Part shown: positions 996 to 31,244 of the stretch, piece by piece | Layout: each line of letters opens with the position of its first letter | Position numbering within the stretch: position 1 is the first letter of the stretch | Source: Sulfuricurvum sp. | GTDB taxonomy: Bacteria; Campylobacterota; Campylobacteria; Campylobacterales; Sulfurimonadaceae | Direction of reading: 5' to 3' | Length of the DNA: 35,185 bases | Assembly: GCF_028681615.1 (NCBI RefSeq) | Contig: NZ_JAQUHV010000020.1 | Location: 1-35,185 of the forward strand | Notes under the pieces: generated by a model | Databases searched by the model: none | What the model saw: the letters and a program-made list of their open reading frames with translations, nothing else | What the model was told of the DNA's origin: nothing | Translations under genes and position numbers: made by a program

Positions 996-3900
996 TTACT
1001 CTCCTGCCAACTCATTCGCAATCATCTCAGCCTGTTTCAAGACCGTCTCGGTTGCCAACATCTGCATATCCGGTGGATAACCAAATTGGCGGAGGGTTCT
1101 TTTTACGATTACCTTTAGTTTGGATCGGACACTCTCTTTGATTGTCCAGTCGATACTGGCATTTTCTCGCACTCTCTGCGTTAGAACAACGGCAAGCTCT
1201 CGTAAAACATCTTTTTCCATAACTTCTTTAGCGCTATCATTGTTAGCGATGGCAGTATAAAATGCGTATTCAAAGTCTGTTAAACCCATCGCTTTAGGCT
1301 CTTCATCCATTTGATGAATATCTTTACTGAGCTTGATGAGTTCTTCAATAACTTCAGCTGCCGTAATGATTTTGTTATGATATTTTTTGATCGAGTTTTC
1401 CAACATCTCCATAAGCGATTTGCTTTGTACGAGATTCGTTTTCATCCTCGTTTTAATCTCGTCATTGAGAAGTTTTTTCAACACTTCCAAGGCGATATTT
1501 TTATGTTTCATCCCTTGAACTTCGAGCAAGAATTCTTCCGATAGAACAGAGATATCAGGCTTTTTAATTCCTGATGCATCAAAAATATCGATTACTTGCT
1601 CTGTTACGAGGGCTTGATCGATGACCTGACGGATAGTAGTTTCTAACTCTTCATCTGTAAGACCGCCACCAGTACCATTGAACTTTACGAGTCGTGCTTT
1701 TACTGCTTGAAAAAATGAAACTTCATCTTTTACATCCATCGCCTCATCATGGGGAACAGCAATAGCAAATGCCGATGAGAGTGCAGTTACTTCATCTATG
1801 TATCTTTTTTTGCCATCTTCGAGACCCAAAACATGCTCTTCCGCTTCAAGGATCAAAGTTAATTTCCCTCTGGTATCTGCTTCAAAGTAATGCTCATATG
1901 CGAATCCATGATACATTTGAGAGACCACTTCTAACTTTTCCAACATCAGTGCAACGGCTTGCTCTTGTGCAAGTGCCGGATCACCTTTTCCGCCACTATC
2001 GCTGTAAAACGATAACGCTTTTTTGAGATCACTTGCAATTCCCAGATAATCTACAACCAATCCAGCAGGCTTATCACCATAAACCCGATTAACCCGTGCA
2101 ATCGCCTGCATGAGGTTATGCCCTTTCATAGGCTTATCGATATAAAGCGTGTGCATCGATGGCGCATCAAATCCAGTCAGCCACATATCCCGTACAATGA
2201 CAAGTTTGAGTTCATCACTCGTATCTTTCATACGGTTTGCCAAATCGCGTCTTTGCTGTTTCGTCGTATGATGTTTGGCTAATGATGGACCATCGCTAGA
2301 ACTGGCTGTCATAATCACTTTGATAACACCCTTATCCAGATCATCGTTATGCCAGTGAGGGCGAAGCTTGATTATCTCCTCATAGAGCCTTGTAGCTATC
2401 CTTCTACTCATAGCAACGATCATCCCTTTACCATCAAATACTTCTTGACGTGCTTCAAAGTGCGTAACAATATCGTTTGCTACCTCTTTAACGCGATTTT
2501 CGCTTCCGATCAGGGCTTCGAGTTGGGTCCATTTTGCTTTGGCTTTTTGGGTTTCACTTAAATCATCATTACCAAGCTCATCATCGAGCTCTTTAACGAG
2601 CTTTTTACCTTCATCGCTTAGCTGTATTTTTGCAAGTCGGCTTTCATAGTAAATTTTAACCGTTGCACCATCCTCAACCGCTTGGGAAATATCATAGATA
2701 TCGACATAATTACCAAACACGGCAGGTGTGTTTACATCGCTACTTTCAATCGGAGTCCCCGTAAATCCAAGATAGGTGGCATTAGGCAATGCATCTCTGA
2801 GGTATTTTGCAAATCCATAAACGATTTTCTTACCGATAACATTTCCATCTTGATCTTTATCATCAACCGTTTTGGGTTTAAAACCATATTGCGTTCGGTG
2901 CGCTTCATCGGCGATAACGATGATATTTCGTCGATCTGAGAGTTCATCATAAACATTTCCCTCTTCGGGCTGAAACTTTTGGATCGTGGTAAAGATCACC
3001 CCACCGCTCGCAACTTTGAGTTTTTGTTTGAGATCGTCTCGGTTTTCTATCTGCACAGGCTCTTGTCGAAGCAGATTTCCACAACCGGCAAAAGTATCAA
3101 ATAGCTGATCATCCAAATCATTTCTATCAGTGATCACTAAGATGGTTGGGTTATTGAGAGCTAGGACGATTTTACCCGTATAAAACACCATAGAGAGTGA
3201 CTTTCCGCTCCCTTGGGTATGCCATACAACACCCCCTTTTTTATCTCCGCCCTCACTACTAGCCTTGATGGTTCGCTCTACTGCTTTATTGACGGCATAG
3301 TATTGATGATAGGCAGCCAATTTTTTGACCGTCTCGATGGTGACGATACCGTTTTTATCCTCTTTTTTGCTTTTCTCATACACGATGAAACTGCGTACCA
3401 GATCGAGCAATGTCATTGGATTCAACATACCCTTGATCAGTGTTTCGAGTTGCGGAACGAGCTTGGAAGCTTCACTGATACCATCACCGCTTTTCCATGT
3501 CATATAACGGCTAAAGCCCGCTGATATCGTCCCCGCTTTTGCTTCGATACCATCGCTGATCACACAAAAAGCATTGTAGGTAAAAAGAGAGGGGATAAGT
3601 GCTTTGTAGGTGCCGATCTGATTATGAGCCGTTTTGATCGTAGCGTTTTCATCCACAGCATTTTTGAGCTCAATCACGACCAACGGCAAACCGTTTACAA
3701 AGAGAATTAAATCGGGGCGTTTGTTGATCCCATTTTCAACGATAGTGAATTGATTCGATACGATAAAATCATTACGGCTTACATCATCGAAATCGATAAG
3801 TTTAACTATCTCTCCACGAGTCACACCATCTCTTTGCACTTCAACCGTTATACCCTCGATAAGCATCTTATGAAAAATCTCATTATCGCTCAAAAGTTCT

Positions 3901-4139
3901 GTGGATCTGAGTCTTTGACATTGTTTTACCGCATATTCGAGCAGATCATATTCGAGTGTCGGATTAATAACCGAAAGTGCGTTTTGGAGCTTTTCTTTTA
4001 ATATCACATCTTCAAAAGAGTTCCGAAGAGGTGTCTGGCTATCCGGTGCGATATTGGGTGCATAGATATATTCATACCCTAGTTTTTCCAGTAGCTCTAT
4101 GGCAAAAAGTTCGATTTCATTTTCGGTTATCTTGGTCAT
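996..4139 (-). CDS. hsdR: Type I restriction enzyme, R (endonuclease/translocase) subunit
   Basis: This is the 1047-residue motor and nuclease subunit of a type I restriction enzyme. It translocates unmodified DNA and cuts it at a distance, working with HsdM and HsdS. The N-terminal PD-(D/E)xK nuclease is visible as RPD (D143) and VIELK (E157, K159). The SF2 helicase motor shows Walker A TQGSGKS (308-314), DEAH at 411-414, then GFTGTPIE and the late motif QAIARVNR. The C-terminal part is helical and probably binds HsdM. Length is normal and the frame is intact. It is separated from hsdS by about 6.5 kb of other defence genes, all on the same strand. It may be transcribed from the cassette promoter at about 6600 or from one nearer; none is obvious in the 95-base gap upstream. 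Confidence 0.96.
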   Translation of the reverse strand: MTKITENEIELFAIELLEKLGYEYIYAPNIAPDSQTPLRNSFEDVILKEKLQNALSVINPTLEYDLLEYAVKQCQRLRSTELLSDNEIFHKMLIEGITVEVQRDGVTRGEIVKLIDFDDVSRNDFIVSNQFTIVENGINKRPDLILFVNGLPLVVIELKNAVDENATIKTAHNQIGTYKALIPSLFTYNAFCVISDGIEAKAGTISAGFSRYMTWKSGDGISEASKLVPQLETLIKGMLNPMTLLDLVRSFIVYEKSKKEDKNGIVTIETVKKLAAYHQYYAVNKAVERTIKASSEGGDKKGGVVWHTQGSGKSLSMVFYTGKIVLALNNPTILVITDRNDLDDQLFDTFAGCGNLLRQEPVQIENRDDLKQKLKVASGGVIFTTIQKFQPEEGNVYDELSDRRNIIVIADEAHRTQYGFKPKTVDDKDQDGNVIGKKIVYGFAKYLRDALPNATYLGFTGTPIESSDVNTPAVFGNYVDIYDISQAVEDGATVKIYYESRLAKIQLSDEGKKLVKELDDELGNDDLSETQKAKAKWTQLEALIGSENRVKEVANDIVTHFEARQEVFDGKGMIVAMSRRIATRLYEEIIKLRPHWHNDDLDKGVIKVIMTASSSDGPSLAKHHTTKQQRRDLANRMKDTSDELKLVIVRDMWLTGFDAPSMHTLYIDKPMKGHNLMQAIARVNRVYGDKPAGLVVDYLGIASDLKKALSFYSDSGGKGDPALAQEQAVALMLEKLEVVSQMYHGFAYEHYFEADTRGKLTLILEAEEHVLGLEDGKKRYIDEVTALSSAFAIAVPHDEAMDVKDEVSFFQAVKARLVKFNGTGGGLTDEELETTIRQVIDQALVTEQVIDIFDASGIKKPDISVLSEEFLLEVQGMKHKNIALEVLKKLLNDEIKTRMKTNLVQSKSLMEMLENSIKKYHNKIITAAEVIEELIKLSKDIHQMDEEPKAMGLTDFEYAFYTAIANNDSAKEVMEKDVLRELAVVLTQRVRENASIDWTIKESVRSKLKVIVKRTLRQFGYPPDMQMLATETVLKQAEMIANELAGE

Positions 4140-4234: not shown

Positions 4235-4768
4235 TTAGATTTTATTGTTAAGCGTCAAAATATCAATTCCTGAATTTTTAAAATCACTATCATTCGTTAG
4301 CAAAACGAATCCGTTGTCTTTGCACAGATTGACTATCAGTTTATCAGAAAAATCCAAACTGTCAATTACCAACATACTTTCAATTTCTTTCTGATAAATA
4401 CCTGTATCCACTATTTCAAAATCATTTATTATTTTTGCTTTGACTAAAGTATAAATATCATTCTGTGCATCTTGCCCCTCAGTACTATCTCTATATTGTT
4501 TATAATTATATGATTGAGAAGTAAGACCGTTTGTGGTTAAATAATTATTGTACTCAATTTTCATTACCCTATTAACAAACTCTGAAATGACTACAAAATG
4601 GATTGTAAATTTTGTATTTTGTTGTATTAGCTTATTATATACTTGAGAGTATCTTGCTTGCCAGGTAAGATGCGTACTCCAGAAAAGATAAAGAAGTATA
4701 TTCGCATCGAAAAAAATCTTCTTATCCCCTATTGTATGCATATTATTCAAATCATATTTATTCATCAT
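4235..4768 (-). CDS. PIN-domain protein, candidate ribonuclease of the GHKL-STAS-PIN cassette
   Basis: This is a PIN-fold protein of about 177 residues counted from ATG 4768, which overlaps the end of the STAS gene. A longer reading from 4798 exists but lacks support. The acidic active site is readable: FFDANILLYLF (D21), ISEF (E63), a third acidic residue in DFSDK (D142), and LLTNDSDF (D160, D162). PIN proteins are metal-dependent RNases, most often toxins of VapBC type. No VapB-like antitoxin is next to it. Instead it is translationally coupled to a STAS-like protein and a GHKL ATPase, which suggests its activity is gated by that pair (inference). Binding to tRNA, mRNA or phage RNA cannot be judged from sequence. 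Confidence 0.85.
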   Translation of the reverse strand: MMNKYDLNNMHTIGDKKIFFDANILLYLFWSTHLTWQARYSQVYNKLIQQNTKFTIHFVVISEFVNRVMKIEYNNYLTTNGLTSQSYNYKQYRDSTEGQDAQNDIYTLVKAKIINDFEIVDTGIYQKEIESMLVIDSLDFSDKLIVNLCKDNGFVLLTNDSDFKNSGIDILTLNNKI

Positions 4769-5117
4769 CTTCGCCCAATATCTCTTTGATAGACTCAACC
4801 ATTCTTTGTGAATCTTTGAAATAGAGCTTTGCTCCGATTACAACCCTTTTTAAGATGATTTGATCTTCAACTGCCATATCTTCAACCTGTAAACTTTCTT
4901 TGAGTTTTGCATCTTCAAAAGACCCATATAGCTTACCGATAGCACTGTTAAGAAATGCCGATGTGATTGTCGTGACATTTTTGAACGATATCATTGCTTT
5001 TTTATTGCTTTCCAAAGCTTTTTTGATGGCTTCAAAAACTTTTTCACCATCTTCTGGTAACGTACAATTCCCGTTACCTACGATATTAAACACATTAATT
5101 TTTACACTTTCCATCAT
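4758..5117 (-). CDS. STAS-like domain protein (DUF4325 type)
   Basis: The protein has 119 residues and starts at a double ATG behind AGGGATAA. Its pattern suits the DUF4325 STAS-like family: an initial beta strand (KINVFNIVG), a helix with many lysines (EKVFEAIKKALESNKKA), the strand MISFKNVTTI, and the signature region SAFLNSAIGKLYG. STAS proteins act as switch partners; in the sigma-factor partner-switching system a STAS protein is bound or phosphorylated by a GHKL kinase. Here the GHKL gene ends 6 bases upstream and a PIN nuclease gene overlaps downstream. The threonine/serine stretch TTITSAF could hold the phospho-acceptor, but that is inference. DUF4325 proteins have no settled function that I know of. 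Confidence 0.8.
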   Translation of the reverse strand: MMESVKINVFNIVGNGNCTLPEDGEKVFEAIKKALESNKKAMISFKNVTTITSAFLNSAIGKLYGSFEDAKLKESLQVEDMAVEDQIILKRVVIGAKLYFKDSQRMVESIKEILGEDDE

Positions 5118-5123
5118 TTATCC

Positions 5124-5984
5124 CTAAAATAATTCACTCAGATCAATCTCTTCTGCAAAGTGATAAGATGTCGTATCATTGGTTTTGAAAACCATATTGA
5201 TAATAACACCGTCAAAATATGAATCAAGATCAAAATATTCTTCACCACCAGTATCAAGCTGATACATGGCATTTCCACTGATTATCTGTATTTTACCCTT
5301 ATTTTTTGTAATAAAGTCTTTGAGTATCGCCAGTCCTATTCCTCCGGGAGTATCCTTTTTGGTCGTATGTCCTTCTGTTATTGCCCATTTGATAGCTTTT
5401 GCAGAAGGGATCTTTTCGCCAAGGTTATTTTCTATTCTTTTAGCAAATCCTACTCCAGTATCAACTATGGTAAAAATGATCTCATTACGCTGAGGATAAA
5501 ATTGACCACAGGTATAGATAAATTTAGTATCACTGTGTATCTGTGCATTGACAAACATTTCAAAGATTGACTCGCTTATTTTTTTCCTGACTTCCTGACT
5601 CATATTTGGCAGTTCATTTCTGCCAAATAACTCTGTTTGCACATAGTTGCTAAAATATCTGCTGTCAGTAGGTTTTAGCTTAAGATATTTGATAGTTGTG
5701 TGATACGTATCATTGGTATCATCAAACCCAAAATGTGCTAAAAATCTATTCTTTTTCAGTATTATTTGAATATTTGGAGAAACAGTTCCAAATTCAATAA
5801 AATTCCATTCATTTAATCTATCGATAATACCGCCTAAAACCGCACTGAGATTTGCATCAAACCATGTGTCCAAATTGATTTCAATAGTTTCAAACGTATC
5901 ATCTTTATATTTTCCATAAAACTCGATCAGTTTATTGAACCCATCGTAATCATTATGAATGTTGGATAATGTAGCATTGTTCAT
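5124..5984 (-). CDS. GHKL-type ATP-binding protein (HATPase_c)
   Basis: This 286-residue protein carries a C-terminal GHKL ATPase fold. The N box is in FEMFVNAQIHS (N146), the G1 box is DTGVGF (D175), and the G2 box is GGIGLAIL (214-221). No histidine phosphorylation site, membrane segment or receiver is present, so this is not a normal sensor kinase. It looks more like an anti-sigma-type serine kinase or a stand-alone GHKL ATPase. The N-terminal 120 residues have no motif I can name and could be the sensor. The gene starts within the stop of the AbiEi-like gene (TAATG) behind AAGGAA, and it precedes the STAS gene by 6 bases, so the pair is almost certainly made together. Confidence 0.85.
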   Translation of the reverse strand: MNNATLSNIHNDYDGFNKLIEFYGKYKDDTFETIEINLDTWFDANLSAVLGGIIDRLNEWNFIEFGTVSPNIQIILKKNRFLAHFGFDDTNDTYHTTIKYLKLKPTDSRYFSNYVQTELFGRNELPNMSQEVRKKISESIFEMFVNAQIHSDTKFIYTCGQFYPQRNEIIFTIVDTGVGFAKRIENNLGEKIPSAKAIKWAITEGHTTKKDTPGGIGLAILKDFITKNKGKIQIISGNAMYQLDTGGEEYFDLDSYFDGVIINMVFKTNDTTSYHFAEEIDLSELF

Positions 5985-6592
5985 TATGTTTCCTTGCAGA
6001 TTTCTTTGATGGTCTCGTAGATCCAGTCCGTTGATGTTTTCGTATCTGTTAGGATCTTGCCAAACATCTTCTCATCGATCTGGCTTCGAATTTTAGTGAT
6101 AACCGTATCTGTGATATGTTCTTTACCGAGTGATCTTAGCGCCTGTACTATCAAAGAACTCTCTTTGTATTTAAACCCTATGTTTTTCAAAGCAGATTTT
6201 TTAAACGCTAGGACTATGTTGTCTTGGATAATATACTCCCTGTTTGGTCCATTACTGAGGTATATATATTTACCGACAATCTGGGTAGAAAGACCCAAGA
6301 TATTGAGCGCCGTATCACCGCTTACTTCGATTTGCCAGTTAAACTTTCTGGCATAAGCATGGGCAATCTTTTCCATATCCGGACTTAGATTTTGTTGCAA
6401 GAGTTTACTGTATTTTGGATAGTCATATATACCGCGAGCCACTCGGCGGATTTTGCCTTTTTGTACTAACTCCGATAGTGCTTTATCTATATTGTCTCTT
6501 GGAAAATCTCTTATAAAATCCATAGATGAAAACGCATACCCATTTCCGTTTCCATATATCTTTGAAAGCACTTGCTCTTGGGTGGATTTCAT
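5984..6592 (-). CDS. AbiEi-like winged-helix protein (DUF6088 type)
   Basis: This 202-residue protein opens with a winged-helix domain (about 1-60): a helix pair SSMDFIRDFPRDNIDKAL, then the wing KGKIRRVARGIYDYP. That wording is typical of the DUF6088/AbiEi antitoxin group. The middle (about 75-150, SGDTALNILGLSTQ, then KYIYLSNG) matches the conserved core seen in AbiEi-type proteins. In AbiE systems this protein represses its own promoter and offsets an AbiEii nucleotidyltransferase toxin. Here no AbiEii follows; a GHKL-STAS-PIN set does. A perfect 10-bp inverted repeat just upstream over the promoter is a likely operator. I infer that it regulates and perhaps controls the PIN toxin cassette. 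Confidence 0.8.
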   Translation of the reverse strand: MKSTQEQVLSKIYGNGNGYAFSSMDFIRDFPRDNIDKALSELVQKGKIRRVARGIYDYPKYSKLLQQNLSPDMEKIAHAYARKFNWQIEVSGDTALNILGLSTQIVGKYIYLSNGPNREYIIQDNIVLAFKKSALKNIGFKYKESSLIVQALRSLGKEHITDTVITKIRSQIDEKMFGKILTDTKTSTDWIYETIKEICKET

Positions 6593-6610
6593 AGTTTATC
6601 CATATTCATT

Positions 6611-6648
6611 TTTTCAGAAAAATATACCATTATTTCTGAAAATTTCAG
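6611..6648 (-). promoter_or_regulatory. Operator/promoter of the AbiEi-GHKL-STAS-PIN cassette
   Basis: A perfect 10-bp inverted repeat lies at 6611-6620 (ttttcagaaa) and 6633-6642 (tttctgaaaa) with a 12-base spacer. A second overlapping palindrome, CTGAAA-A-TTTCAG, covers 6636-6648. On the minus strand the spacer contains the extended -10-like TGGTATATT, so a protein on the repeat would block transcription. AbiEi proteins are known to bind inverted repeats at their own promoter, and the AbiEi-like gene begins 19 bases downstream. The cassette therefore seems independently regulated from the hsd promoter. Confidence 0.6.
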
Positions 6649-6729
6649 GTTAAAAGAATGGACAAAATAAGCTAACTTATTTTCAGTCATTATGCACTCT
6701 TTTTTGTTGAGGAACATGCTTATAACAGG

Positions 6730-7479
6730 TCATTTGGACTGTTTTTCTTTATATGTTTTGTAAATAAACAATGCCATTGAACCTGCCAAATTAACTGCAA
6801 GTTCACCATGTCTCTCTTTTGGCTTAATCTTTGTTTTTGTTGCACCGTGTGCATCACCTAATTTATTTCTCATTACACCAAGTCCACTTATAATTCCATT
6901 CGCACCACCAAGTATTTGTTTAAAAATGCCTTCTTGATGCTGTTCTGGAGCTAAATTTAATAACTTTGCCACCTCTTTATAAAGCTCTGACAATTCCATA
7001 CTATCATTATGATTGATATTCTGTTCCTCTAAAATATGTTTTAACAAACTCTCAATCAAAGTTCTAGCAATGGTTATAGCACCCTCTGGATCACTGTCTT
7101 TTCTTTCAATTGCTTTTTGCCATTGCTGAGAAATATGTACTTCGTCAAAAACTATAATCTCATCAAGCGGGGAAAATGTTTTAAATTCTATTTGATTCAG
7201 TAGCGGTGCGAATTCACTCCAAATGAACTCTCTTCTTTCCTGATAAGAACCAAATTTGCCTTTAATAAAACCCCAAAATTGATTTGTATCTCTGCAAGTT
7301 TTAATCCACTCAGGAAGTAACTTTTGATAGTCATTATTCTTTAGTACTTTTTGTCTTACATAATCATAATAATCAAAACTCCCACCTGTTGCACGACCAA
7401 TTAAACCATTTTCAAGGTACTTTATCAATTCGTAGTCAGTAAGATTATTTATTGTTGTTATTTCATCATTAAAGCTCAT
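6730..7479 (-). CDS. Abortive-infection protein with Abi_C / HEPN-like C-terminus
   Basis: This 249-residue protein ends in a domain recognisable as the abortive infection C-terminus (Abi_C, from memory PF14355). It has the run ITIARTLIESLLKHILEE, then GGANGIISGLG, then MRNKLGDAHG. The last element, R204-N205-x5-H211, has the spacing of a HEPN R-x(4-6)-H ribonuclease motif, so RNA cleavage is plausible. The N-terminal half (1-110) holds no known domain and is likely the sensor part. It starts on an ATG that overlaps the stop of a scar ORF made of hsdR and hsdS fragments. Neighbours are an OLD-type nuclease upstream and the AbiEi cassette downstream. It could act alone or with the OLD protein. 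Confidence 0.75.
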   Translation of the reverse strand: MSFNDEITTINNLTDYELIKYLENGLIGRATGGSFDYYDYVRQKVLKNNDYQKLLPEWIKTCRDTNQFWGFIKGKFGSYQERREFIWSEFAPLLNQIEFKTFSPLDEIIVFDEVHISQQWQKAIERKDSDPEGAITIARTLIESLLKHILEEQNINHNDSMELSELYKEVAKLLNLAPEQHQEGIFKQILGGANGIISGLGVMRNKLGDAHGATKTKIKPKERHGELAVNLAGSMALFIYKTYKEKQSK

Positions 7480-7553
7480 ATCCTCACCCTCACTTCTCCC
7501 CTCAAAAACCTAATAGCGAACAATTCGATTTTATTTTCGATGATTTCAGTCAT
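7476..7553 (-). pseudogene. Chimeric scar: hsdR start fused in frame to hsdS end
   Basis: The gap between the ATPase and Abi genes encodes 25 residues on the minus strand. The first 14, MTEIIENKIELFAI, match the real HsdR N-terminus (MTKITENEIELFAI) at 11 of 14 positions. The last part, RGEVRVRI, matches the HsdS C-terminus GGEVRVEW, and GAAGTGAGGGTG is shared at the base level with the intact hsdS end. The piece is in frame from ATG to TGA and the TGA overlaps the next ATG. It reads as a footprint of a recombination or insertion event at the old hsdS-hsdR junction, not as a working gene. Confidence 0.75.
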
Positions 7554-7557
7554 TATG

Positions 7558-9552
7558 TTACTCACTAAAATATTTCCTAACTTCTTTTATCCATTCTGGA
7601 ATAAGAGAATCATTTTCTGCTTCTTTTGACATGATTTCTACATACTTTTGAGCAAAAACTGTTTTAAATTCACCATCATTATCTTTGAATAAATTTTCAA
7701 GTTCTAAGTTTTTGAAATTTTTTATAAAATCTGAATTGCCATTTTCATTTTCTATCGTTTTAATCGTATATTTTTCATTGATAGAAAGTTCATTGATTGC
7801 TTTTTGAAAGATTATAGGGTTCAACGCCTGTTCTATATCGGTTGGAGATGTATCTGAATGATTGAGTGTTAAAAGTTCTGTTTTTATATTTGAATTTTTA
7901 TTGCTTAGTCTTCTGAGTTTGAGATTTTTACTACCCTCTTTTAAATAATCTTTATGTCTAGCTTGGTCAGTATCAATTAAGCACCAAATTTTCCCTTTCA
8001 GGGCCTCATTCTTTTCTCTCATTGGCAACTCTAGATATTCATAAACTTCAGATACACTATTGTTTCCACCGAGAGGCAAAATTCTCAATTTCTTTTCTTC
8101 AATTTCTTGTTGAAAGAAGTATTCTAAATAATGTTTTTCACTAATTCCTTCAACAATCAACCAGTTGTATGGAGTTTGTCCTTGTATTGAATAATATATT
8201 GCTTGTACTAAATCATTAGTACTTTTAAGCATGAAGTTATTTGGTAATTTTCCTTTACTAGTTGTCGTTGTAGATCTGATTTTAGCTTTATAATCATATA
8301 AATCATATGTTTCAAAAATAATTTTTTCACTTTTATAATCTAGAAAATGTCCATACCCTTGACTTAAAATTGGCAAAAAACCATACCAATGTGTAGTAAT
8401 AAAAATTTGATTGTTTTTGGAAATAGTTTTTAATTTCTCAAACTGCTCATAGCATAGTGATGTGTGTAAAGAGTTTTCTGGTTCATCAATTCCAATAATA
8501 ATACTTTTTTCTCTATCTATATTTCTTATCAAGAAAGCATAAACGATATCAATTAGAGCTTGCCGTTTTTCTCCAGCACTTAATTCACTAACTTTTTTAT
8601 CCTTTCTATATAAAACTCTTTTTTGAAAATATGCTTCTAATATTTTATTTACTAAATCTGATTTTGTAATTTTGTTATTTCTTTGTTGCCCAGTTTGATA
8701 TTCATATTCATCATGTAATATACTTTGTATTTCGATTAAAAAACTTTCTAATTTGTTATTAATACCATCTGTACCTTCCAGCTTTACATTGGATAGAGCA
8801 GTTGTTATTTCGTCTTTTAGCTTTTTATCAAAGATTTTCTGCATTTCATCTGTTTCAACTTTTGTAAAACTTTCTATATCAAGCTCAACTGGCACATAAA
8901 CGAATGAGTATAACTCTTTTAACTCTTGCAAGATTTTTCTTTGTTCATTTTTATCTAACAATTTATTGAGCTCATCTTTCCAAAGCGAGAGAGTTTCTTT
9001 TCTCTCTTCACTTGACTTTCCTTCTAGCTCAGTTGCGTTTTTATCTAAATAATGCGTTAAAAATTTCTCTTCATTATGAAAACTTGCAAAATATAATTTT
9101 GGAGCCCCCCCAGTAATATTTTGTTCTCCTAAAATAAAAAAATAATGCGATTCTTCACTATATTGCAAATTTTTTAATATACTTTCTCTTATCAAGAAAA
9201 AGTCTTTCATTGAGCCCTGAACACCTGAACTTAAATCAGTTTTCCTAACATTCCAAAAAAATTTACTTATTTTTTCAAATTCATTTTTTTTTCTTGGAAC
9301 TTTTGTTTTATCGATTAGAAAGATAGGAGCAAAAAATGGTTCATTTCCATAAGTAAAAATTCCATCATTTAATGCACTTTTATTGATTGGATATAGCTTA
9401 TTATTAAAAAATGAATTAAAAGCTTCGAGAATTGAGCTTTTCCCAATTCCATTTTCTCCAATATAGCTTACAAAGTTATATTTTTCTCCAATTGGAATAT
9501 AGTTAATTCCCTTATATGCTTTTATATGTTTTAAAAATAAACCTACAATCAA
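7558..9552 (-). CDS. OLD-family ATP-dependent nuclease (ABC-type ATPase plus TOPRIM)
   Basis: The protein has 664 residues. The N-terminal ABC/SMC-type ATPase shows Walker A GENGIGKS (32-39), the signature ELSAGEKR (about 323-330), Walker B IIIGIDEPEN (D356, E357) and the switch TTH (386-388). A TOPRIM nuclease follows, with E468 in LIVEG and the D-x-D pair at D527/D529 in CLIDTD. This order defines the OLD group, which includes GajA of Gabija and retron effectors. No UvrD-type GajB is beside it. The start is TTG 9552, supported by AAAGGA seven bases upstream; no ATG fits. Gene composition is very AT-rich, apart from one run of seven G (9105-9111) at codons 148-150. Likely a phage-defence nuclease. 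Confidence 0.88.
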   Translation of the reverse strand: MIVGLFLKHIKAYKGINYIPIGEKYNFVSYIGENGIGKSSILEAFNSFFNNKLYPINKSALNDGIFTYGNEPFFAPIFLIDKTKVPRKKNEFEKISKFFWNVRKTDLSSGVQGSMKDFFLIRESILKNLQYSEESHYFFILGEQNITGGAPKLYFASFHNEEKFLTHYLDKNATELEGKSSEERKETLSLWKDELNKLLDKNEQRKILQELKELYSFVYVPVELDIESFTKVETDEMQKIFDKKLKDEITTALSNVKLEGTDGINNKLESFLIEIQSILHDEYEYQTGQQRNNKITKSDLVNKILEAYFQKRVLYRKDKKVSELSAGEKRQALIDIVYAFLIRNIDREKSIIIGIDEPENSLHTSLCYEQFEKLKTISKNNQIFITTHWYGFLPILSQGYGHFLDYKSEKIIFETYDLYDYKAKIRSTTTTSKGKLPNNFMLKSTNDLVQAIYYSIQGQTPYNWLIVEGISEKHYLEYFFQQEIEEKKLRILPLGGNNSVSEVYEYLELPMREKNEALKGKIWCLIDTDQARHKDYLKEGSKNLKLRRLSNKNSNIKTELLTLNHSDTSPTDIEQALNPIIFQKAINELSINEKYTIKTIENENGNSDFIKNFKNLELENLFKDNDGEFKTVFAQKYVEIMSKEAENDSLIPEWIKEVRKYFSE
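9105..9111 (-). repeat. Homopolymer G7 tract inside the OLD nuclease gene
   Basis: Seven consecutive G on the coding strand fall in codons for Thr-Gly-Gly-Ala around residues 147-150, in an otherwise AT-rich gene. In Campylobacterota, G tracts of this kind often slip and switch genes on and off; tracts of eight or more are the usual switching ones, so this is borderline. The gene is in the ON length here. A second G7 run lies in the outer-membrane factor gene (31583-31589), so the tract alone is weak evidence. Confidence 0.35.
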
Positions 9553-9645
9553 TTAAATATCCTTTAGTCTAATTTCACCACTCATAAGCTTAACCGATAG
9601 TGTATCTCGCCAGTTTTCAGAAAAAACAATTTGTATATTATTCAT
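9553..9645 (-). pseudogene. Remnant of an hsdS 3' end
   Basis: Between the SIR2 and OLD genes a 30-codon frame on the minus strand ends with WRDTLSVKLMSGEIRLKDI. This matches the conserved last helix and tail of HsdS; the intact HsdS here ends RETLLPKLMGGEVRVEW. The shared pattern is R(D/E)TL..KLM.GE(I/V)R. It is not a copy of the local hsdS, since residues differ, so it probably came from another type I system. Its ATG overlaps the SIR2 stop, and its TAA directly abuts the TTG start of the OLD gene, so it may now serve as a translated leader that carries the OLD ribosome binding site. Confidence 0.7.
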
Positions 9646-10627
9646 ATTTCGCAAGCTCTTCATACCAACTCCAAAGTTCCTCAAAATTAACATTTTGTGG
9701 AATAGGATTATCTTCTATAAACTTAGCATCGATAAACTGATTCCAGTACGCTTCACCCGTTCTTCTTGGGTGATTAGCTATCCATGAAGAAAAAAAATCG
9801 TTTTCGATTTTATAGTGATGACTAAATATAAATGGCTGCCATGTTTCTATGAGATCATCTTCCGCTCTAATATCTATAATTTCTGTTTCTTCAAGTGCTC
9901 TTTGTCTATGATTCCATGCTTTTTCCATTAAATCAATTGCCCCTTTGTCTGACTTAGGAGCTCCATATCCAAAAATAGTAACCATAAAAGAGTGCTTCAA
10001 TACATCCTTAAAAATCTCCCACTCTTTATGAATAAAAGGGTCTAATGAATAGTTTTTATCTCCAATGGGATACAAAAGCTTTGACGGTATCAATGCTTCA
10101 TGACATATTGAACAAGGTTGTCCAATATTCCCTTTGATGTGTCCATTCGGACAATATCCGACCTCTACATTTCCATGTAAAAATATTAGTTTGGGCAATT
10201 TAAATTTATTACCATTTCTTCTATATGCTTGAATCAAAAATGGATCCCAGTTAAATGTTGCTATAAAGTCTTTTTCTCTCAATGAAAGAAGTAAATAATC
10301 ATATATAGTGGGAGTTTCTAGAATTTCCAGTGATGAAAAATACTCGTAAACTTTTTGTTCGAGTTCTACTTTTATCTCATAAAGAGTCGGATCTTTAGAA
10401 ATTTGGTCATAAATCTCTTCAAAATTACTCGTTTGAAATTCGATTTGAGTTTGTTTGATCAAGTCATCAAGCTCTAAAATATCAATCAGATTATTCATCA
10501 GTGGAAGTTGCTTATTATTTTTGTCACCCAAACGAAAAGAAGCATAACTAGCACCAGCACCGAGAATAACTAAATGTGGCGCGCCAATATTAATTTGTTT
10601 GATTTCTTCTTCTTTATTAACTACCAT
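9638..10627 (-). CDS. SIR2-like protein, candidate NAD-consuming defence effector
   Basis: The protein has 329 residues with a SIR2 fold. The NAD-binding GAGAS is at 23-27, the TFNWD motif at 124-128, and the probable catalytic histidine is H151 in LHGNV. A zinc-knuckle-like set C159, H163, C172, C175 lies in the usual place. GYGAPKSD (about 220-227) matches the family's late GxG-x-S/P-D motif. Stand-alone SIR2 proteins in defence loci usually destroy NAD+ after phage sensing (established for Thoeris, DSR and similar systems). Its ATG overlaps the hsdS stop by 7 bases, so it is translated from the hsdMS message. That coupling suggests it backs up restriction, which is inference. Confidence 0.85.
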   Translation of the reverse strand: MVVNKEEEIKQINIGAPHLVILGAGASYASFRLGDKNNKQLPLMNNLIDILELDDLIKQTQIEFQTSNFEEIYDQISKDPTLYEIKVELEQKVYEYFSSLEILETPTIYDYLLLSLREKDFIATFNWDPFLIQAYRRNGNKFKLPKLIFLHGNVEVGYCPNGHIKGNIGQPCSICHEALIPSKLLYPIGDKNYSLDPFIHKEWEIFKDVLKHSFMVTIFGYGAPKSDKGAIDLMEKAWNHRQRALEETEIIDIRAEDDLIETWQPFIFSHHYKIENDFFSSWIANHPRRTGEAYWNQFIDAKFIEDNPIPQNVNFEELWSWYEELAKYE

Positions 10628-11772
10628 TCCACCCTCACTTCCCCACCCATAAGTTTAGGCAAAAGAGTCTCTCTCATATTTTTAAGGTTTTTGATTTGGT
10701 TTGTATTTTGAATAATCTTTTCATTAAAAGAGGATGTAACTTCATGAAATTTTTCAATCAAATCATATGTTGGTAAAGTTATTTCTATATTTTCAAAATC
10801 CGTTTTATTAATTATTGGCATGGTAGTACCACCCATTGCTATAGCACGAAGTAAAGGATAAATATATTTTAAATGCTGATACACATATTCAACCAATATG
10901 CTGTCCTCAATTATCAAAGAATTAATTTGTTGATTACTTACACATTGACTTTGTGCTATCGCTACTTTTCCCATATCTGAACCAATACATGTAACTAAAA
11001 TAGAATTTATTGGCAATAGAGAATTTTTGACTTTCTCCACTCCCAAAAGCGAAAGACTTCTATCAGAAAAGGTAGTATATTTACCATAGTATTTAAAGTC
11101 AGTTGGAGTAACAAAATATATTCCGTCACCCCAAAATTCTGTATTCTGAGTACTTGGTGTTTTACCAGTAACAGCTTTTCCTAGATTCCCTAATATGGTT
11201 ACTTCCCACTCATCCCTAGCCTCTTCAATAAACCACTGCCTAAAAAGCGTTTGAGCCAACTCTTCAAGAGTTTTATTTTGACGGTGAAGAAGATCGATTT
11301 TATCATCAAGACTACTTAGCACTTCCGCTATAGCTTTTTGTTCTTCAAGGGGTGGAACATTCCAAACTGTTTGAGATAAAAAGTTCCAATCTGCTCTAGG
11401 CATTCTCGTTCCACCTGATGAAGAATAAGAAATATCAACCAGCTCTTGATTTGTAAAAAAGTAAAATAAAAAGTCTTTGTCAATTCCTTTTTGTGGATTG
11501 ATTACCCAAATATCGGTTGAACATATGCCATCAAAATTAGGTTTAACAACTTTTCTAAAATATGGTCTTAATTTTCCAAAAAGTGTATCTCCAGCTTGAA
11601 AATAAAATTTGTTACTTGCCACATCTTCAGATTTACCAATGCCATTTAATCTAAGCTTAGCTTCTTCAATATGCTCAAGTCCGATATAAGACATTGGTTC
11701 ATCACCAACTTTCCAAGATTTTTTAGAAAGTTTAGCAATATCAGAAATTTTGCACTCTTTCCACTCACCCAT
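10621..11772 (-). CDS. hsdS: Type I restriction-modification specificity subunit
   Basis: This 383-residue DNA-recognition subunit is counted from ATG 11772, which overlaps the end of hsdM by 8 bases; the protein then begins MGEWKECKISDIAKL. Two target-recognition domains are present: about 5-150 and about 190-335. Each is followed by a conserved helical spacer. The first spacer reads PPLEEQKAIAEVLSSLDDKI and the second ends in MRETLLPKLMGGEVRVEW. The two half-site specificities cannot be predicted from sequence by eye. The gene is intact. The next gene, SIR2, starts inside its stop region, and fragments of other hsdS tails occur at 7476-7500 and 9553-9615. Confidence 0.95.
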   Translation of the reverse strand: MGEWKECKISDIAKLSKKSWKVGDEPMSYIGLEHIEEAKLRLNGIGKSEDVASNKFYFQAGDTLFGKLRPYFRKVVKPNFDGICSTDIWVINPQKGIDKDFLFYFFTNQELVDISYSSSGGTRMPRADWNFLSQTVWNVPPLEEQKAIAEVLSSLDDKIDLLHRQNKTLEELAQTLFRQWFIEEARDEWEVTILGNLGKAVTGKTPSTQNTEFWGDGIYFVTPTDFKYYGKYTTFSDRSLSLLGVEKVKNSLLPINSILVTCIGSDMGKVAIAQSQCVSNQQINSLIIEDSILVEYVYQHLKYIYPLLRAIAMGGTTMPIINKTDFENIEITLPTYDLIEKFHEVTSSFNEKIIQNTNQIKNLKNMRETLLPKLMGGEVRVEW

Positions 11773-13285
11773 CAACAACAACCTTTGCCAAATTATCATT
11801 GATTCTCTGATTGAGTTGTGCTTCTTCTGCCATCTGCTCTTTTAGCTGTCTTTGTAAGCTTTCAAATCTCTCTTTGAAATCAAACTCATCCTCCACATCT
11901 TCCAGCCCAACATATCGCCCCGGAGTGAGAACATAATTCATCTCACGCACTTTTTCGAGGCTTGCGGATACGCAGAACCCTTTTATATCTCCATACGCAC
12001 CATTGCCAGTTTTCCAATCATGATAAATCTTGGCTATAGTGTCCGTATCTTCATGGCTGAACTCTTTTGTCCGTCTGTTTATCAGCGCACCCATATTTCG
12101 TGAGTCTATAAACAAGATATCTTTAGTCGTTCGTCCTCGTTTCATAAACCATATAGAGGCGGGGATTTGAGTATTGAGAAACAGTTTGGCGGGGAGATTG
12201 ACGATACAATCGACCAGATTGGCTTCTATAAGAGCTTTTCTGATTTCCCCCTCATTGGAAGTGTTAGAAGTGAGGCTCCCTTTAGCCAGTACAAATCCCG
12301 CTGTTCCTGTCGGTGCTAGATGATAAAGAAAGTGTTGTATCCATCCGTAGTTGGCATTTCCCTCTGGTGGGGTTCCATATTTCCATCGTCCATCGTTTCG
12401 GAGCAGATCACCGCTCCAATCGCTGACATTAAACGGTGGATTGGCGATGATAAAATCAGCTTTTAAATCTTTATGAGCATCATTGAGAAATGAGCCTTCA
12501 TTGTTCCATTTGACTTGAGAACTGTCGATACCACGAATGGCGAGGTTCATTTTCGCCAATCGCCATGTTGTTTGGTTGGACTCTTGCCCATAGATGGAAA
12601 TATCGTTTAGTTTTCCTTGGTGCTCTGTGACAAACTTCTCCGATTGGACAAACATACCGCCACTACCACAACACGGATCGAATACTCTCCCCTTGTATGG
12701 CTCTAACATTTTTACGAGAAGCTCAACAACGCTTTTCGGAGTATAAAACTGTCCGCCTTGTTTACCCTCTGCCAGTGCAAACTCGCCCAAGAAGTATTCA
12801 AACACATGACCAAGGACATCCGCACTTCGAGCTTTCGCATCTCCAAAAGCGATATTACCAATCAGATCGATTAGCCCGCCAAGAGATTTGCTATCAAGAT
12901 TGTCTCTGGCAAAAACTTTTGGCAGAACCCCTTTGAGTGATGGGTTGTCCTTTTCGACAACATCCATCGCTTCATCAACAATCTTTCCAATATTTGGGAG
13001 TTTGGCATTAGCAAGGAGATACGACCATCTGGCAGTAGGCGGAACAAAAAATACATTTTCAGCTTGATACTCGTCGCGATCTTCGGGATCAGCACCCGCA
13101 TAATCACCATCCCCCGCTTGGAGTTGATTATAAAGCTCTTCAAAACTATCAGAAATATATTTGAGAAACACTAGCCCCATTACGACATGTTTATACTCTG
13201 CTGCATCAATATTTTTTCGTAGTTTATCTGCGGCTTTCCAGAGTTGTTTTTCTATCGCTTCTTCTTGTTGTTTTTCTTTTGCCAT
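11765..13285 (-). CDS. hsdM: Type I restriction-modification DNA N6-adenine methyltransferase
   Basis: This 506-residue modification subunit methylates adenine in the sequence chosen by HsdS and is also needed for restriction. The N-terminal helical HsdM domain (EKQLWKAADKLRKNID, then HVVMGLVFLKYIS) leads into the methyltransferase core. The S-adenosylmethionine site is FDPCCGSGG (202-210) and the catalytic motif is NPPF (282-285). The C-terminal helices (about 470-506) form a coiled coil suited to HsdS contact. The ribosome site AAGAGGATAG precedes the ATG. It is the first gene of the restriction locus; its promoter should lie in 13286-13360, where TACAAT and TATATGAT-like boxes occur on the minus strand. 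Confidence 0.96.
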   Translation of the reverse strand: MAKEKQQEEAIEKQLWKAADKLRKNIDAAEYKHVVMGLVFLKYISDSFEELYNQLQAGDGDYAGADPEDRDEYQAENVFFVPPTARWSYLLANAKLPNIGKIVDEAMDVVEKDNPSLKGVLPKVFARDNLDSKSLGGLIDLIGNIAFGDAKARSADVLGHVFEYFLGEFALAEGKQGGQFYTPKSVVELLVKMLEPYKGRVFDPCCGSGGMFVQSEKFVTEHQGKLNDISIYGQESNQTTWRLAKMNLAIRGIDSSQVKWNNEGSFLNDAHKDLKADFIIANPPFNVSDWSGDLLRNDGRWKYGTPPEGNANYGWIQHFLYHLAPTGTAGFVLAKGSLTSNTSNEGEIRKALIEANLVDCIVNLPAKLFLNTQIPASIWFMKRGRTTKDILFIDSRNMGALINRRTKEFSHEDTDTIAKIYHDWKTGNGAYGDIKGFCVSASLEKVREMNYVLTPGRYVGLEDVEDEFDFKERFESLQRQLKEQMAEEAQLNQRINDNLAKVVVDG

Positions 13286-14277: not shown

Positions 14278-15207
14278 CTACTGTATCAGATGCTCGATCT
14301 GACGACTAAGGAAGCTATCTGCAATTGCTTTAGCTTTGAGAGCAAGCGCTTTAGGAGAGGTAATGATGAGATCGGGCATCCACTTTTTGATCTCATGGAG
14401 TATTTCGCGCTCAGCAGTCACCAGCACCTCAATCTCCATACTTCCATCCTTGTAGGTCTCGATGATTCGCTGGGTACTGGCTAGTGGTCGACGATGGAAG
14501 TATTTGGCAATCTCGGCGGTTGCACGGATTGTCACTGCAAAAGGTTCTTTATCAGGTTCGAACCATGCGTTAATGGCACGCTCCAGAATCTTGTAGGTCT
14601 TATCATTGGGAATAAAGGTCTCATTGGTGAGTTGGAGATGATCAATCCCTTTGAAGTAATAGGTTTTGAGTTTATTTTCTAAAAGCTCTTCACCATAGAG
14701 ATACCAGTACCCCTCAAATGAGACGATCTTATAGGGGTGAACATGACGTAGTTTACCGTTGTAGTTAAATATCACCATCTTGCTCTCCATGATTGCCTCT
14801 TCGATGATATGAAAGAGGGAAAGCTTATCCGAGATATCTTCGATGATGGTTTTGGAGTAGATGGGGTTTTTAGTGTTGTTCTGGAGTTTGGAGAAGAGGG
14901 ATTTGGCTTTCACCCCAAACTCTGATCCGATACCCTCAGCAATATTACCGAGCATCTCCAGTACCAATGCCTCTTCGGGAGAGCGCTCTTTGGTGATGGC
15001 ATGGCCGCTTTGCATCTTCCACTTCATCCCCTGCTTCTCTATCGGAAAACGAATCAGTCTTTGGTTGAAATCACGCTGTATGGTCTTGGTGGAGACATTG
15101 AACTCTAGGGCTAAATCCTGAACCGATAAGAGTTCCCCCTCATAGAGACGCTGCAAGATGATGGTAAGTCGGGTGAGGATCTTATCGTAGTCGTGAATTT
15201 GTCCCAT
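14278..15207 (-). CDS. WYL-domain transcriptional regulator
   Basis: This 309-residue regulator begins with a DeoR-like helix-turn-helix (about 10-65; VQDLALEFNVSTKTIQRDF). The WYL domain follows (about 135-215, ending near EGYWYLYGEELLENKLKTYY), and a C-terminal WCX-like part lies at about 230-305. WYL proteins bind nucleic acid or nucleotide ligands, and many repress defence operons (BrxR and CapW are known examples). The gene is first in an operon with the Aat-like gene. An inverted repeat at 15226-15249, 18 bases before its ATG, is the likely operator and could also control the divergent small genes from 15291. Confidence 0.88.
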   Translation of the reverse strand: MGQIHDYDKILTRLTIILQRLYEGELLSVQDLALEFNVSTKTIQRDFNQRLIRFPIEKQGMKWKMQSGHAITKERSPEEALVLEMLGNIAEGIGSEFGVKAKSLFSKLQNNTKNPIYSKTIIEDISDKLSLFHIIEEAIMESKMVIFNYNGKLRHVHPYKIVSFEGYWYLYGEELLENKLKTYYFKGIDHLQLTNETFIPNDKTYKILERAINAWFEPDKEPFAVTIRATAEIAKYFHRRPLASTQRIIETYKDGSMEIEVLVTAEREILHEIKKWMPDLIITSPKALALKAKAIADSFLSRQIEHLIQ

Positions 15208-27207: not shown

Positions 27208-30200
27208 CTATTTAAATCGAATTACTATAAGTGGCATAAGTATTAAAACGACCGGAATTTCAAATAAAAGTCCTGAAATAATCGCAATTGCCAGAGGCGC
27301 TTGCATCTGTGCACCACTCCCGATTCCAAGGGCTAATGGAATCAAAGATAGAATAGCTATTGCAGCTGTCATAACGACGGGTCTCAAGCGAAGTTGTCCG
27401 GCTTTGATAAATTTCCGGATTCCTCGATATGTCAATAAATCAAGTTCGCTGAAATAATACATTGCTGTTTTTGCAACAATCCCCAATATCATCGTTAAAC
27501 CGATAAGGGCTGTCAAATTTAACTCGGTTTTACTTAACCATAACCCAAGAAAAACCCCGGGAAGCGATAGAAAAATCGTTACTAGAATAATGGCGGCGGT
27601 TTTAATATTTTCATAGAATGCCAGCAGTAATCCGGCAATTAGCAAAACGGCGGCAATAATAACCAAGATCATCTCTCTAAAAGATTGTTGCTGTTCTTTA
27701 TAAATACCTCCGTACTCGATCGAGATCTCTTTAGGCAGATCAAGCAGTGCAATAGATTTTTTGACATCATTCATTGCATCCCCTAATGCTCTCCCCTCAA
27801 CACGTGCTGTAACAGCGATCATTGGTTTGAGATTTTCTTCTTTGATGTGAACCTGACCGGTATCGATCGAGATATCGGCTATTCTATTTAATTCAAATAT
27901 ATGGCCGTCGGGCGCAACGATGGGTAAGTGTGACAATTTCTCGCCGCTGTTATAGAGAGACATATCACCCAACACCCTTAGAGCGATAGGTTGAGAGCCA
28001 TTTGGAATCGTCGTCGCAACCGTTCCATCCATCAGAGTTGAAAGCTGATTTTGAATCGACAGAGGTGTCATCCCCTCATTGCTTGAGCGTAGCGGATTGA
28101 CTTTAATCGTGTACGCATCAGCAGAGGAGACAATCCCGTTAAACACTTCAGTCACTCCCGAAATATGGCTGATAGTAGCCGCAATTTTTTTAGCGGTTGC
28201 CTGATTAGATAGCGTGTCGGTTCCAAATATCTTGATCTCAATCGGCTGTGGAGTTGCCGTCAAATCACCAATAACATCCTCCATAAGCTGCGCCGTTTCA
28301 ATTCGAAGCCCTGGAACACGACTTTCGATTTGATCTCGAAGACGTCCCATTACGTGTGTAACGTCATCTTTACGCTTTTTTTTCAATTTGATAAAAAAAT
28401 CCCCTTCATTTGTTTCGGAGATACCGCCGCCTAGCTGAAGGGCTGTTCGTCTGGAATAGCCATCAACCGCTGGATCTTTGAGCAGAATGCTATCGACTTG
28501 ATTCAAAATACGATTCGTTTCAGTTAATGACGTCCCCGGCTCCATTTTATAATCTAAAATAAATCCCCCCTCATCCATGCGAGGTAAGAAGCCGCTTCCA
28601 AGTCCCCAAAATGATATACCGCCTAATGTGATTAAAATAAAAACAGAGATGAGCGGGATGAGCGGCTTACGAATGAGTTTTGTAATTAAATGAGCGTAAT
28701 GGAGATGAACTTTTTTCATCAATGCTGAAGCGTGCGTTGCATTAGAGGTATTATGAGAATGTAAAAATCTTTCAAATAAAATCGGAACGACAAAATATGC
28801 TGTGAGTACCGAAAATAAGATTAATATAGTGATGGTTGTTGCCAATGCTTTAAAAAATTCACCCGCAACGCCTGATAAAAAAGAAAGGGGCAAAAAAACG
28901 ATTACGGTAGCAAGAAACGTTGCAAACAGTGGTTTCCCGATCTCTTTAGCGGCTGAATACACCGTAATTGAAAATGACTTATTTTTATTCCCTTCGAGAC
29001 CGCGAATAATATACTCAATCATAACTACAAGATCATCCACAACAAGCCCTGCCGCAGCTGCCATACCGCCAAGGGTCATAATATTAAAACTCATTCCAAA
29101 CATCTTCATTAAAAAAACTGATGCTATTAATATTCCGGGCAATAAAAGCGAGACAATAATTGTAAGTTTAAAATTTCTAAAAAATAAAAACAGGACCAAA
29201 GAGGCAAGAAGTGCACCTATGATAATTACGTCTTTAACACTTGTTGCGGCATCACTGACGAGTTCGGACTGATCATACCAAACACCCGTTTTTACCGTTT
29301 TTGGTATTTGATCTTTGTGAACGTTGAGTGTCTCTTTGACCATATTAACAAGATCAATCGAATTGGCGCCCGGTTGTTGCAGTATATTGATCAATACTGC
29401 ATTTTTGCCGTTTGCAGTGACTCCTACCCACTCTCGTTGAACCGATTCTTTTACCGTAGCAACATCTTTCAGCAAAACGGTTCCATTTTGATCGACAATC
29501 AACGGAAGATTTGAAAGTGCATCAATTGTGGTGCTCTGGTGGTTTACAAGCACTTGGTAGAGACGATAATGCTCTTCAAACCGTCCAACACCAACAATTT
29601 GGTTATTGGCATGCAGTGCATCCACAATTTGTGAAGCAGTGAGGTTAAATGAAGCCATCTTTATGGGATCAACTACAATATTAAACTGCTTTTTTTGTCC
29701 CCCCTGAATTTGTACCTGCGCCACTCCGTTAATAGTAAAAAGCCAAGGTCGCATCTGTTCCATAGCAAAAGAGCGCAACTCTACGGGTGATAACGTATCA
29801 GAAGTCAAAGAGAGCCCAAAAATAGGAAAAACAGTCGGATCCATCCGTTTAGCATCATACGATACCCCTGGCGGTAAAAGGGGAATTGTTTGATTGACGG
29901 CTGACTCTATCTGAAGAAGTTTCTTATCCATATCAAGCCCCCACTCAAAAAAAACGGAGAGTTCGCTTGATCCTTTGGCGGAGGTGGTACGGAGCGTTTT
30001 AACGCCCGGAATCGACCGGATAGCCTGAGCAATGGGACGTGTTATTTCAAGATTTGTTTGATCTATCGGAAGATTTCCAGAATCAACCGATACGACAATG
30101 CGAGGAAAACTGACCGTTGGAAAAAGTGAAACAGGAAGTTTCCATGCCGAAAATGCCCCTGCGATGAAAAGCAACAACGCTGCGAACAGGATGGATCTCT

Positions 30201-30222
30201 TATGATTTTTTACCCAGTTCAA
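27208..30222 (-). CDS. RND-family efflux pump, inner-membrane permease
   Basis: The 1004-residue proton-driven pump of the AcrB/CzcA superfamily is slightly shorter than the usual 1020-1050. TM1 (about 10-28) is followed by a porter domain, then a cluster of membrane helices (about 330-480). These include the charged helix with AAAAGLVVDDLVVMIEYI, whose D-D pair relays protons. The C-terminal half repeats this plan (about 520 on). The motif falls between the metal (HME) and drug (HAE) types, so substrate is unknown. It forms a tripartite pump with the adaptor and outer-membrane factor encoded just upstream. Its ATG overlaps the adaptor stop by 4 bases. Confidence 0.93.
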   Translation of the reverse strand: MNWVKNHKRSILFAALLLFIAGAFSAWKLPVSLFPTVSFPRIVVSVDSGNLPIDQTNLEITRPIAQAIRSIPGVKTLRTTSAKGSSELSVFFEWGLDMDKKLLQIESAVNQTIPLLPPGVSYDAKRMDPTVFPIFGLSLTSDTLSPVELRSFAMEQMRPWLFTINGVAQVQIQGGQKKQFNIVVDPIKMASFNLTASQIVDALHANNQIVGVGRFEEHYRLYQVLVNHQSTTIDALSNLPLIVDQNGTVLLKDVATVKESVQREWVGVTANGKNAVLINILQQPGANSIDLVNMVKETLNVHKDQIPKTVKTGVWYDQSELVSDAATSVKDVIIIGALLASLVLFLFFRNFKLTIIVSLLLPGILIASVFLMKMFGMSFNIMTLGGMAAAAGLVVDDLVVMIEYIIRGLEGNKNKSFSITVYSAAKEIGKPLFATFLATVIVFLPLSFLSGVAGEFFKALATTITILILFSVLTAYFVVPILFERFLHSHNTSNATHASALMKKVHLHYAHLITKLIRKPLIPLISVFILITLGGISFWGLGSGFLPRMDEGGFILDYKMEPGTSLTETNRILNQVDSILLKDPAVDGYSRRTALQLGGGISETNEGDFFIKLKKKRKDDVTHVMGRLRDQIESRVPGLRIETAQLMEDVIGDLTATPQPIEIKIFGTDTLSNQATAKKIAATISHISGVTEVFNGIVSSADAYTIKVNPLRSSNEGMTPLSIQNQLSTLMDGTVATTIPNGSQPIALRVLGDMSLYNSGEKLSHLPIVAPDGHIFELNRIADISIDTGQVHIKEENLKPMIAVTARVEGRALGDAMNDVKKSIALLDLPKEISIEYGGIYKEQQQSFREMILVIIAAVLLIAGLLLAFYENIKTAAIILVTIFLSLPGVFLGLWLSKTELNLTALIGLTMILGIVAKTAMYYFSELDLLTYRGIRKFIKAGQLRLRPVVMTAAIAILSLIPLALGIGSGAQMQAPLAIAIISGLLFEIPVVLILMPLIVIRFK

Positions 30223-31244
30223 TGTACTTTCTCCATTACATTTACCCGCATACCATTTTCACACTCATAATTGCCAAGGGTAATCACGTGATCATTGGAA
30301 CGAATCCCCTCCAATATGAGGGTATTTCCATTATGAGAATTTCCAACCCTTACTTTGCGTAAAAGAGCTTTTTGGTTCATTACCACAAAACAATAATGCA
30401 CATTGTTACGCGTAATAATTGCTGTTGATGGGAGGACAATACCGCGTTCCGATCCTGTTACTATTTCACCTGAGATAGAGGTACCGGCCATAAAATCCTT
30501 CGATGACGGGATTTGAATCCGAACACTCACCAATCTACTTTTAGGATCTATTTGAGAGGATAGTGAAACGATTGAACCGATATGCGGTTTCAATGAAGAT
30601 GAAGAGGGTGTAATAATCACTTTTTGTCCCATGCGAATATCACGAGCACTTGATGGTTCAATACCCAGTGTAGCAATCAGATGATTGGCACTTCCAATCA
30701 GAATAAGAGGCATTTGAGCCGAGACAATATCCCCGTTTTTGATCATAATACTTTGAATAACACCGTTTATCGGTGATTTAAGAGTTCCACCTATAGCGGA
30801 GTGAAGTTTTTTGGATAACTCTGCTTTGGTCTGCAATGCTTTATCAAGATTTTGTGAGGCAAGCTCAACGTCTGCATTGGTTGCCAATGCGGCATCACGC
30901 ATAGAAGATACCCTGTTTTTCTCTTTTTGTCCATATTCGACACTTATCGTTGCCAACCTTAGTGCCGATACATCGCTCTCACTTGGGGCAATCGTTGCTA
31001 CGATTTCCCCTTTTTTGACTTTTTGCCCCGGCACTACCTTTACTGCAACAATTTTTGCCCCGGATTCAAGAGAAAGCGTTGTCGATGTAAGGGGATCAAA
31101 GTCAATCGATCCATAGCCGCGAACACTCTTTTCCAGTGATGCGACGGTTGCCTTTTGCGCTGATACCGTTGCAATGACCTGTGCGTTAAGGGCTACAACG
31201 GAGAAGAAAGTAAGGCACGTTAATATAATGGCTAATTTTTTCAT
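30219..31244 (-). CDS. RND efflux membrane fusion (periplasmic adaptor) protein
   Basis: The 341-residue adaptor has a signal peptide (MKKLAIILTCLTFFSVVALNA). The biotinyl-lipoyl-like halves are visible as AKIVAVKVVPGQKVKKGEIV and SPINGVIQSIMIKNGDIV, flanking an alpha hairpin of about 65 residues (about 90-150). A beta-barrel and membrane-proximal part follow. It bridges the inner pump and the outer channel. The hairpin is short, so it probably docks to a short outer-membrane factor. Start and stop overlap neighbours by 4 bases (ATGA). Confidence 0.92.
   Translation of the reverse strand: MKKLAIILTCLTFFSVVALNAQVIATVSAQKATVASLEKSVRGYGSIDFDPLTSTTLSLESGAKIVAVKVVPGQKVKKGEIVATIAPSESDVSALRLATISVEYGQKEKNRVSSMRDAALATNADVELASQNLDKALQTKAELSKKLHSAIGGTLKSPINGVIQSIMIKNGDIVSAQMPLILIGSANHLIATLGIEPSSARDIRMGQKVIITPSSSSLKPHIGSIVSLSSQIDPKSRLVSVRIQIPSSKDFMAGTSISGEIVTGSERGIVLPSTAIITRNNVHYCFVVMNQKALLRKVRVGNSHNGNTLILEGIRSNDHVITLGNYECENGMRVNVMEKVH

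Follow-up and report, generated by a model that had tools for sequence, protein, structure and literature searches.

Background

VapKSC is an anti-phage toxin-antitoxin system published in June 2026 (Chambers et al., EMBO J 2026; PMC13373217). In Escherichia sp. E4736, VapS caps VapC; the proposal is that VapK, on sensing ssDNA, phosphorylates Ser48 of VapS (PMC13373217). The Escherichia VapC is toxic and is neutralised by VapS, and the evidence for its release consists of a phosphomimic, with which VapC binding is lost, and one co-purification. The triple is functional in E. coli from the cloned vapKSC operon alone, protection against phage Bas42 being about 2 logs and being abolished by VapC D28A, VapS S48A and VapK F54A. 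Besides, 36% of vapKSC lie within 10 kb of another immune gene (all from PMC13373217). The structure of Escherichia VapSC is in the PDB as 9z7o.

Layout of the locus

We analysed a 35,185-nucleotide stretch of DNA from Sulfuricurvum sp. (NZ_JAQUHV010000020.1, below called the window). It forms a contig of its own in a genome of 2.66 Mb and has a Sulfurovum MAG as its nearest named relative. Four minus-strand genes overlap or touch here, as the preliminary description had it and as the open reading frames, Pfam and PADLOC confirm. The first gene of this sub-operon encodes an AbiEi-like/DUF6088 winged-helix protein (5984-6592; Pfam DUF6088 E 2.5e-31, AbiEi_4 E 1.6e-4; PADLOC AbiEi PDLC02226 E 2.7e-61). 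It is followed by VapK, with a predicted N-terminal STAS-like and GHKL Ser/Thr-kinase domain (5124-5984; Pfam HATPase_c E 5.6e-4 and AF2 model), by VapS, a STAS-like (DUF4325) antitoxin with the phospho-acceptor Ser53 and a C-terminal tail (4758-5117; Pfam DUF4325 E 2.5e-15), and by VapC, a predicted PIN-domain ribonuclease toxin (4235-4798; Pfam PIN E 1.4e-5). By the reading-frame coordinates, the gaps are -1 between AbiEi and vapK, +6 between vapK and vapS and -41 between vapS and vapC; vapC probably starts at ATG 4768/4765 and not at TTG 4798, since the orthologues begin there. The PADLOC version used (2023) lacks models of VapS and VapC, so the missing calls for these two are uninformative.

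A single type I restriction operon surrounds the cassette, with hsdS on one side and hsdR on the other. The gene of the restriction subunit HsdR (996-4139, minus strand; PADLOC REase_I E 0, 1298 bits) is 95 bp downstream of vapC on the shared strand, and the specificity subunit HsdS (10621-11799, minus strand; Pfam Methylase_S E 4.7e-34) and the methyltransferase HsdM (11765-13285, minus strand; Pfam N6_Mtase E 1.8e-107) are encoded upstream. On the whole, one long same-strand row runs hsdM, hsdS, a family-less gene, an AAA_15/OLD-like ATPase, an AbiJ-like Abi_C protein, AbiEi, vapK, vapS, vapC and hsdR. The family-less gene (9638-10627, minus strand) encodes 329 aa and has neither a Pfam nor a PADLOC match. 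At 6730-9552 (minus strand), the ATPase, which has a TOPRIM hint, adjoins the Abi_C gene, and the two may form another two-gene defence system. Further upstream, ahead of the hsd genes, there are also a Leu/Phe-tRNA-transferase-like gene and an HTH-WYL-WCX regulator (14278-15207, minus strand). CapW and BrxR are WYL regulators of immune operons, and by analogy this regulator may control the whole gene row.

Identity and conserved residues

The window VapS matches 9z7o_A, the Escherichia VapS (E 7.9e-15), and a family profile of the PIN protein matches 9z7o_C, the Escherichia VapC (E 1.1e-13), with no other PDB chain significant in either case; a phmmer search with the PIN sequence alone gave no PDB match. 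The alignments place window Ser53 on VapS Ser48 and window Asp31 on VapC Asp28, and the three genes are adjacent in the order vapK-vapS-vapC. The VapK model (AF2, pLDDT 90.7, from an alignment built without plasmid and phage rows) consists of a STAS-like N-terminal half (about 1-105) and a GHKL half (about 106-270), and together with a fold search shows the two domains without the HTH of CapK. The closest solved structures of the GHKL half are SpoIIAB (Z 13.4, rmsd 2.6, 133 residues) and then RsbW, and the N-terminal half resembles VapS at the profile level (pairwise E 4e-5, probability 70%). Judged from homology and gene order, the genes at 4235-5984 are a VapKSC system on a plasmid-like contig, and are of an already described kind. 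The preliminary description had put it forward as a candidate undescribed system; undescribed is wrong, as VapKSC was published in June 2026.

The intact N, G1 and G2 boxes and the intact PIN acidic site reported earlier are both borne out. The GHKL residues are E142/N146/H150 in the N box, then D175/G177 and G215/G217, the PIN active-site residues are D31, N33, E73, D149, D152, D170 and D172, and both sets are almost invariant across about 47-52 homologues. The phospho-acceptor column is Ser or Thr in 51 of 54 VapS sequences. Among the exceptions, L107 and L108 have no recognisable PIN gene, and L004 has Ala in a solitary STAS protein with no VapK or VapC beside it. The single solitary STAS protein seen apart from kinase and toxin has thus lost the acceptor, in keeping with partner switching as published. 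Its gene (L004:7968-8357) shares a row with what is likely a gene pair of nucleotidyltransferase/HEPN type. In addition, the column of VapK W41 is aromatic in 47 of 52 sequences, and W41 is the likely counterpart of Escherichia F54, with a Trp in place of Phe at this candidate ssDNA-contact position.

Proposed mechanism

We consider it very probable that the locus works as a VapKSC in which VapS holds the VapC RNase and VapK phosphorylates VapS on ssDNA and frees VapC, with AbiEi as a local add-on. The STAS domain of VapS would bind VapC and place its C-terminal tail at the VapC active site, keeping the toxin inactive. VapK would be a kinase of the SpoIIAB type that has a STAS-like domain of its own and is switched on by ssDNA from phage replication or damage, or perhaps from cutting by the neighbouring type I enzyme. 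Activated VapK would phosphorylate Ser53 and the phosphorylated VapS would let go, whereupon VapC would cut RNA and growth would stop; AbiEi is perhaps an autorepressor. Homology and conserved residues back the identity of the parts, their order, the active sites and the phospho-acceptor, while toxicity, neutralisation, phosphomimic loss of VapC binding and phage protection come from the Escherichia homologue only (PMC13373217). The ssDNA trigger in the window copy, taken from relatives, the link to restriction and the role of AbiEi are what we infer. The earlier interpretation, with a GHKL/STAS pair as the sensor of a cue that either releases or blocks the PIN nuclease, agrees with the homologous VapKSC, phage protection included (PMC13373217); its undescribed, four-gene cassette does not stand.

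Distribution of the triple

A search of 100 related genomes with the STAS protein yielded one further good match. The window's phylum and the phyla of two related loci were then searched with a GHKL profile, about 400 genomes in each, and viral contigs with a STAS profile; the single VapS protein against genome contigs gave 4 loci. With Escherichia VapS as query, no viral contig was matched and the match was a Deinococcus plasmid only, which also carries the triple. Behind high-scoring GHKL matches come a STAS and then a PIN gene on the shared strand, usually touching or overlapping. VapK alone was the query in three of the surveys, the STAS and PIN neighbours emerging from there. Overall, the order K-S-C is found in 46 sampled loci with all three genes by profile, from several phyla and prophages. 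Conserved order across genomes had been proposed as a check on the cassette, and it is kept throughout these 46 loci; such recurrence puts the triple far beyond what chance would give. The triple is also present in five Bacillota-type prophage loci, three with an integrase next to it (L017, L020, L117) and two with a GH25 lysin in front (L015, L021), and Javan172 is among the prophage carriers.

Six loci have GHKL and STAS genes without a PIN match; among them, L116 ends inside the STAS gene, and in L109 the next gene has a PIN-like FVDTN motif. Low-scoring GHKL matches in the window's phylum are paired with another STAS-like protein and have no PIN gene. In L033-L043 of this phylum, the GHKL ATPase is found with a STAS-like protein having a GSRGxGE motif, often tail to tail, and this is a separate, possibly undescribed pair.

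The 35-kb contig encodes Rep3, ParA, ParB, a DnaB-like protein and a resolvase and is therefore, on gene content, plasmid-like; the circularity check found no exact terminal overlap between its ends. A Y-family polymerase and RND efflux genes (about 27208-32557) are on the same contig. Such a location would suit a module that mainly stabilises the plasmid by addiction, phage protection being a side effect, since toxin-antitoxin and restriction would both favour retention. However, most sampled homologues are chromosomal or in prophages, VapS is not known as short-lived, and in the homologue it is phosphorylation that brings about release, so we regard an addiction module as unlikely.

The AbiEi gene and a putative operator

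Among all sampled triples, AbiEi is found elsewhere only in L002, a close Sulfurovum relative, as a remnant whose last 28 residues are fused to RhuM-like sequence. Besides this fused remnant, L002 (6745-7131 and 9362-10293) has RhuM-like and AbiEi-like ORFs again after a truncated hsdR, the second AbiEi-like ORF running off the contig end; this is a rearrangement or an assembly chimera. As AbiEi stands beside a triple elsewhere only in L002, it is a local add-on and not part of the VapKSC module. AbiEii, noted earlier as absent, is indeed unmatched by PF08843 in the whole genome, while control genomes gave matches, and the toxin-antitoxin pairing of an AbiE type IV system is thus not seen here.

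Upstream of AbiEi, a putative promoter/operator of the AbiEi-VapKSC sub-operon (6593-6729, minus strand) contains a perfect 10-nt inverted repeat (TTTTCAGAAA; 6611-6620/6633-6642) flanking the -10-like hexamer TATATT (6621-6626), and 27 of 1000 shuffles were as good. The repeat and hexamer are only weakly suggestive of an operator, and it is possible that AbiEi represses the cassette as a candidate autorepressor. Together with the one-base overlap of AbiEi and vapK, this possible operator would favour a four-gene AbiEi-GHKL-STAS-PIN system with AbiEi as an essential regulator; yet no other sampled triple has an AbiEi save the L002 remnant, and such a system is very improbable.

Restriction, BREX and Hma context

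Restriction, BREX or Hma genes are found within the operon or next to it at 16 of the 47 loci in the VapK tree. The context is type I in the window, L002, L003, L095-L097, L099 and L104, type IIG in L078 and L109, type ISP in L103, an N6-MTase of unclear type in L084, a ResIII helicase with an N6_N4 MTase in L098, BREX in L005, PglXI in L094, and Hma in L086, where the triple is between hmaA and hmaB. These labels were assigned by hand from Pfam and PADLOC matches, the gaps in L005 and L103 being about 535 bp. About two thirds of the sampled loci have no restriction gene next to them, which means that restriction is not a required partner. The adjacency is well above a random gene's chance, judged by the two N6_Mtase matches in the 2.66 Mb of the own genome rather than by a formal rate. 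Counted on starred branches of the VapK tree, the label has changed at least 9 times, and 12 times by parsimony, and it is no more clustered than in shuffles. In-operon placement recurs in unrelated bacteria, and the at least 9 changes suggest that VapKSC is repeatedly coupled to DNA-cutting defences.

A guard of the PrrC type has to be weighed here, in which the Hsd complex silences VapC and a phage inhibitor of restriction releases it, VapK and VapS being adaptors. PrrC is reported to be silenced by a linked type I enzyme (PMC2610378, PMC3874168), and the position inside the hsd operon, the 16 adjacent loci and the recurrent changes on the tree would all agree. But most triples are without a linked restriction system, the cloned Escherichia operon works alone in E. 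coli (PMC13373217), and the partner systems (type I, IIG, ISP, III-like, BREX, Hma) are structurally unrelated, so one specific protein contact is unlikely; we hold this guard to be improbable. Keeping to VapKSC, we suggest tentatively, at somewhat less than even chance, that it has been repeatedly recruited into operons of DNA-cutting or -modifying defences as a built-in second line, VapK being activated by DNA ends or ssDNA that restriction produces or that remain when it fails. If true, one operon would cut the phage first and then shut the cell down. The context connects restriction operons of several phyla with a defence system described only recently, and it allows layered immunity to be tested within one transcription unit. 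VapKSC itself is already known; the restriction-operon context and the phospho-acceptor pattern are what this analysis adds.

Comparison with known systems

The window and the Escherichia VapKSC have in common the gene order, the domain make-up, the phospho-acceptor Ser, the PIN acids and the C-terminal tail of VapS, while the window differs in low sequence identity, in the AbiEi gene in front and in its place inside an hsd operon, between hsdS and hsdR, of a plasmid-like contig. With CapK-CapS, which frequently adjoins restriction systems (88 of 443 cases in the CapK-CapS paper), it shares a STAS-GHKL kinase acting on a STAS substrate; in contrast, its kinase has no HTH, its STAS protein has no winged helix, and its target is a nuclease and not a promoter. 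The locus does not fit CapK-CapS, as the VapK model starts with the STAS-like fold and VapS, of 119 aa, ends after a short tail. The AbiE (AbiEi/AbiEii) system shares the AbiEi-like gene, whereas its AbiEii nucleotidyltransferase toxin has no counterpart in this genome. Finally, the PrrC and RloC anticodon nucleases likewise are RNases linked to restriction or DNA breaks, but the window has a PIN domain and not a PrrC-type protein, with the kinase and the antitoxin as separate genes.
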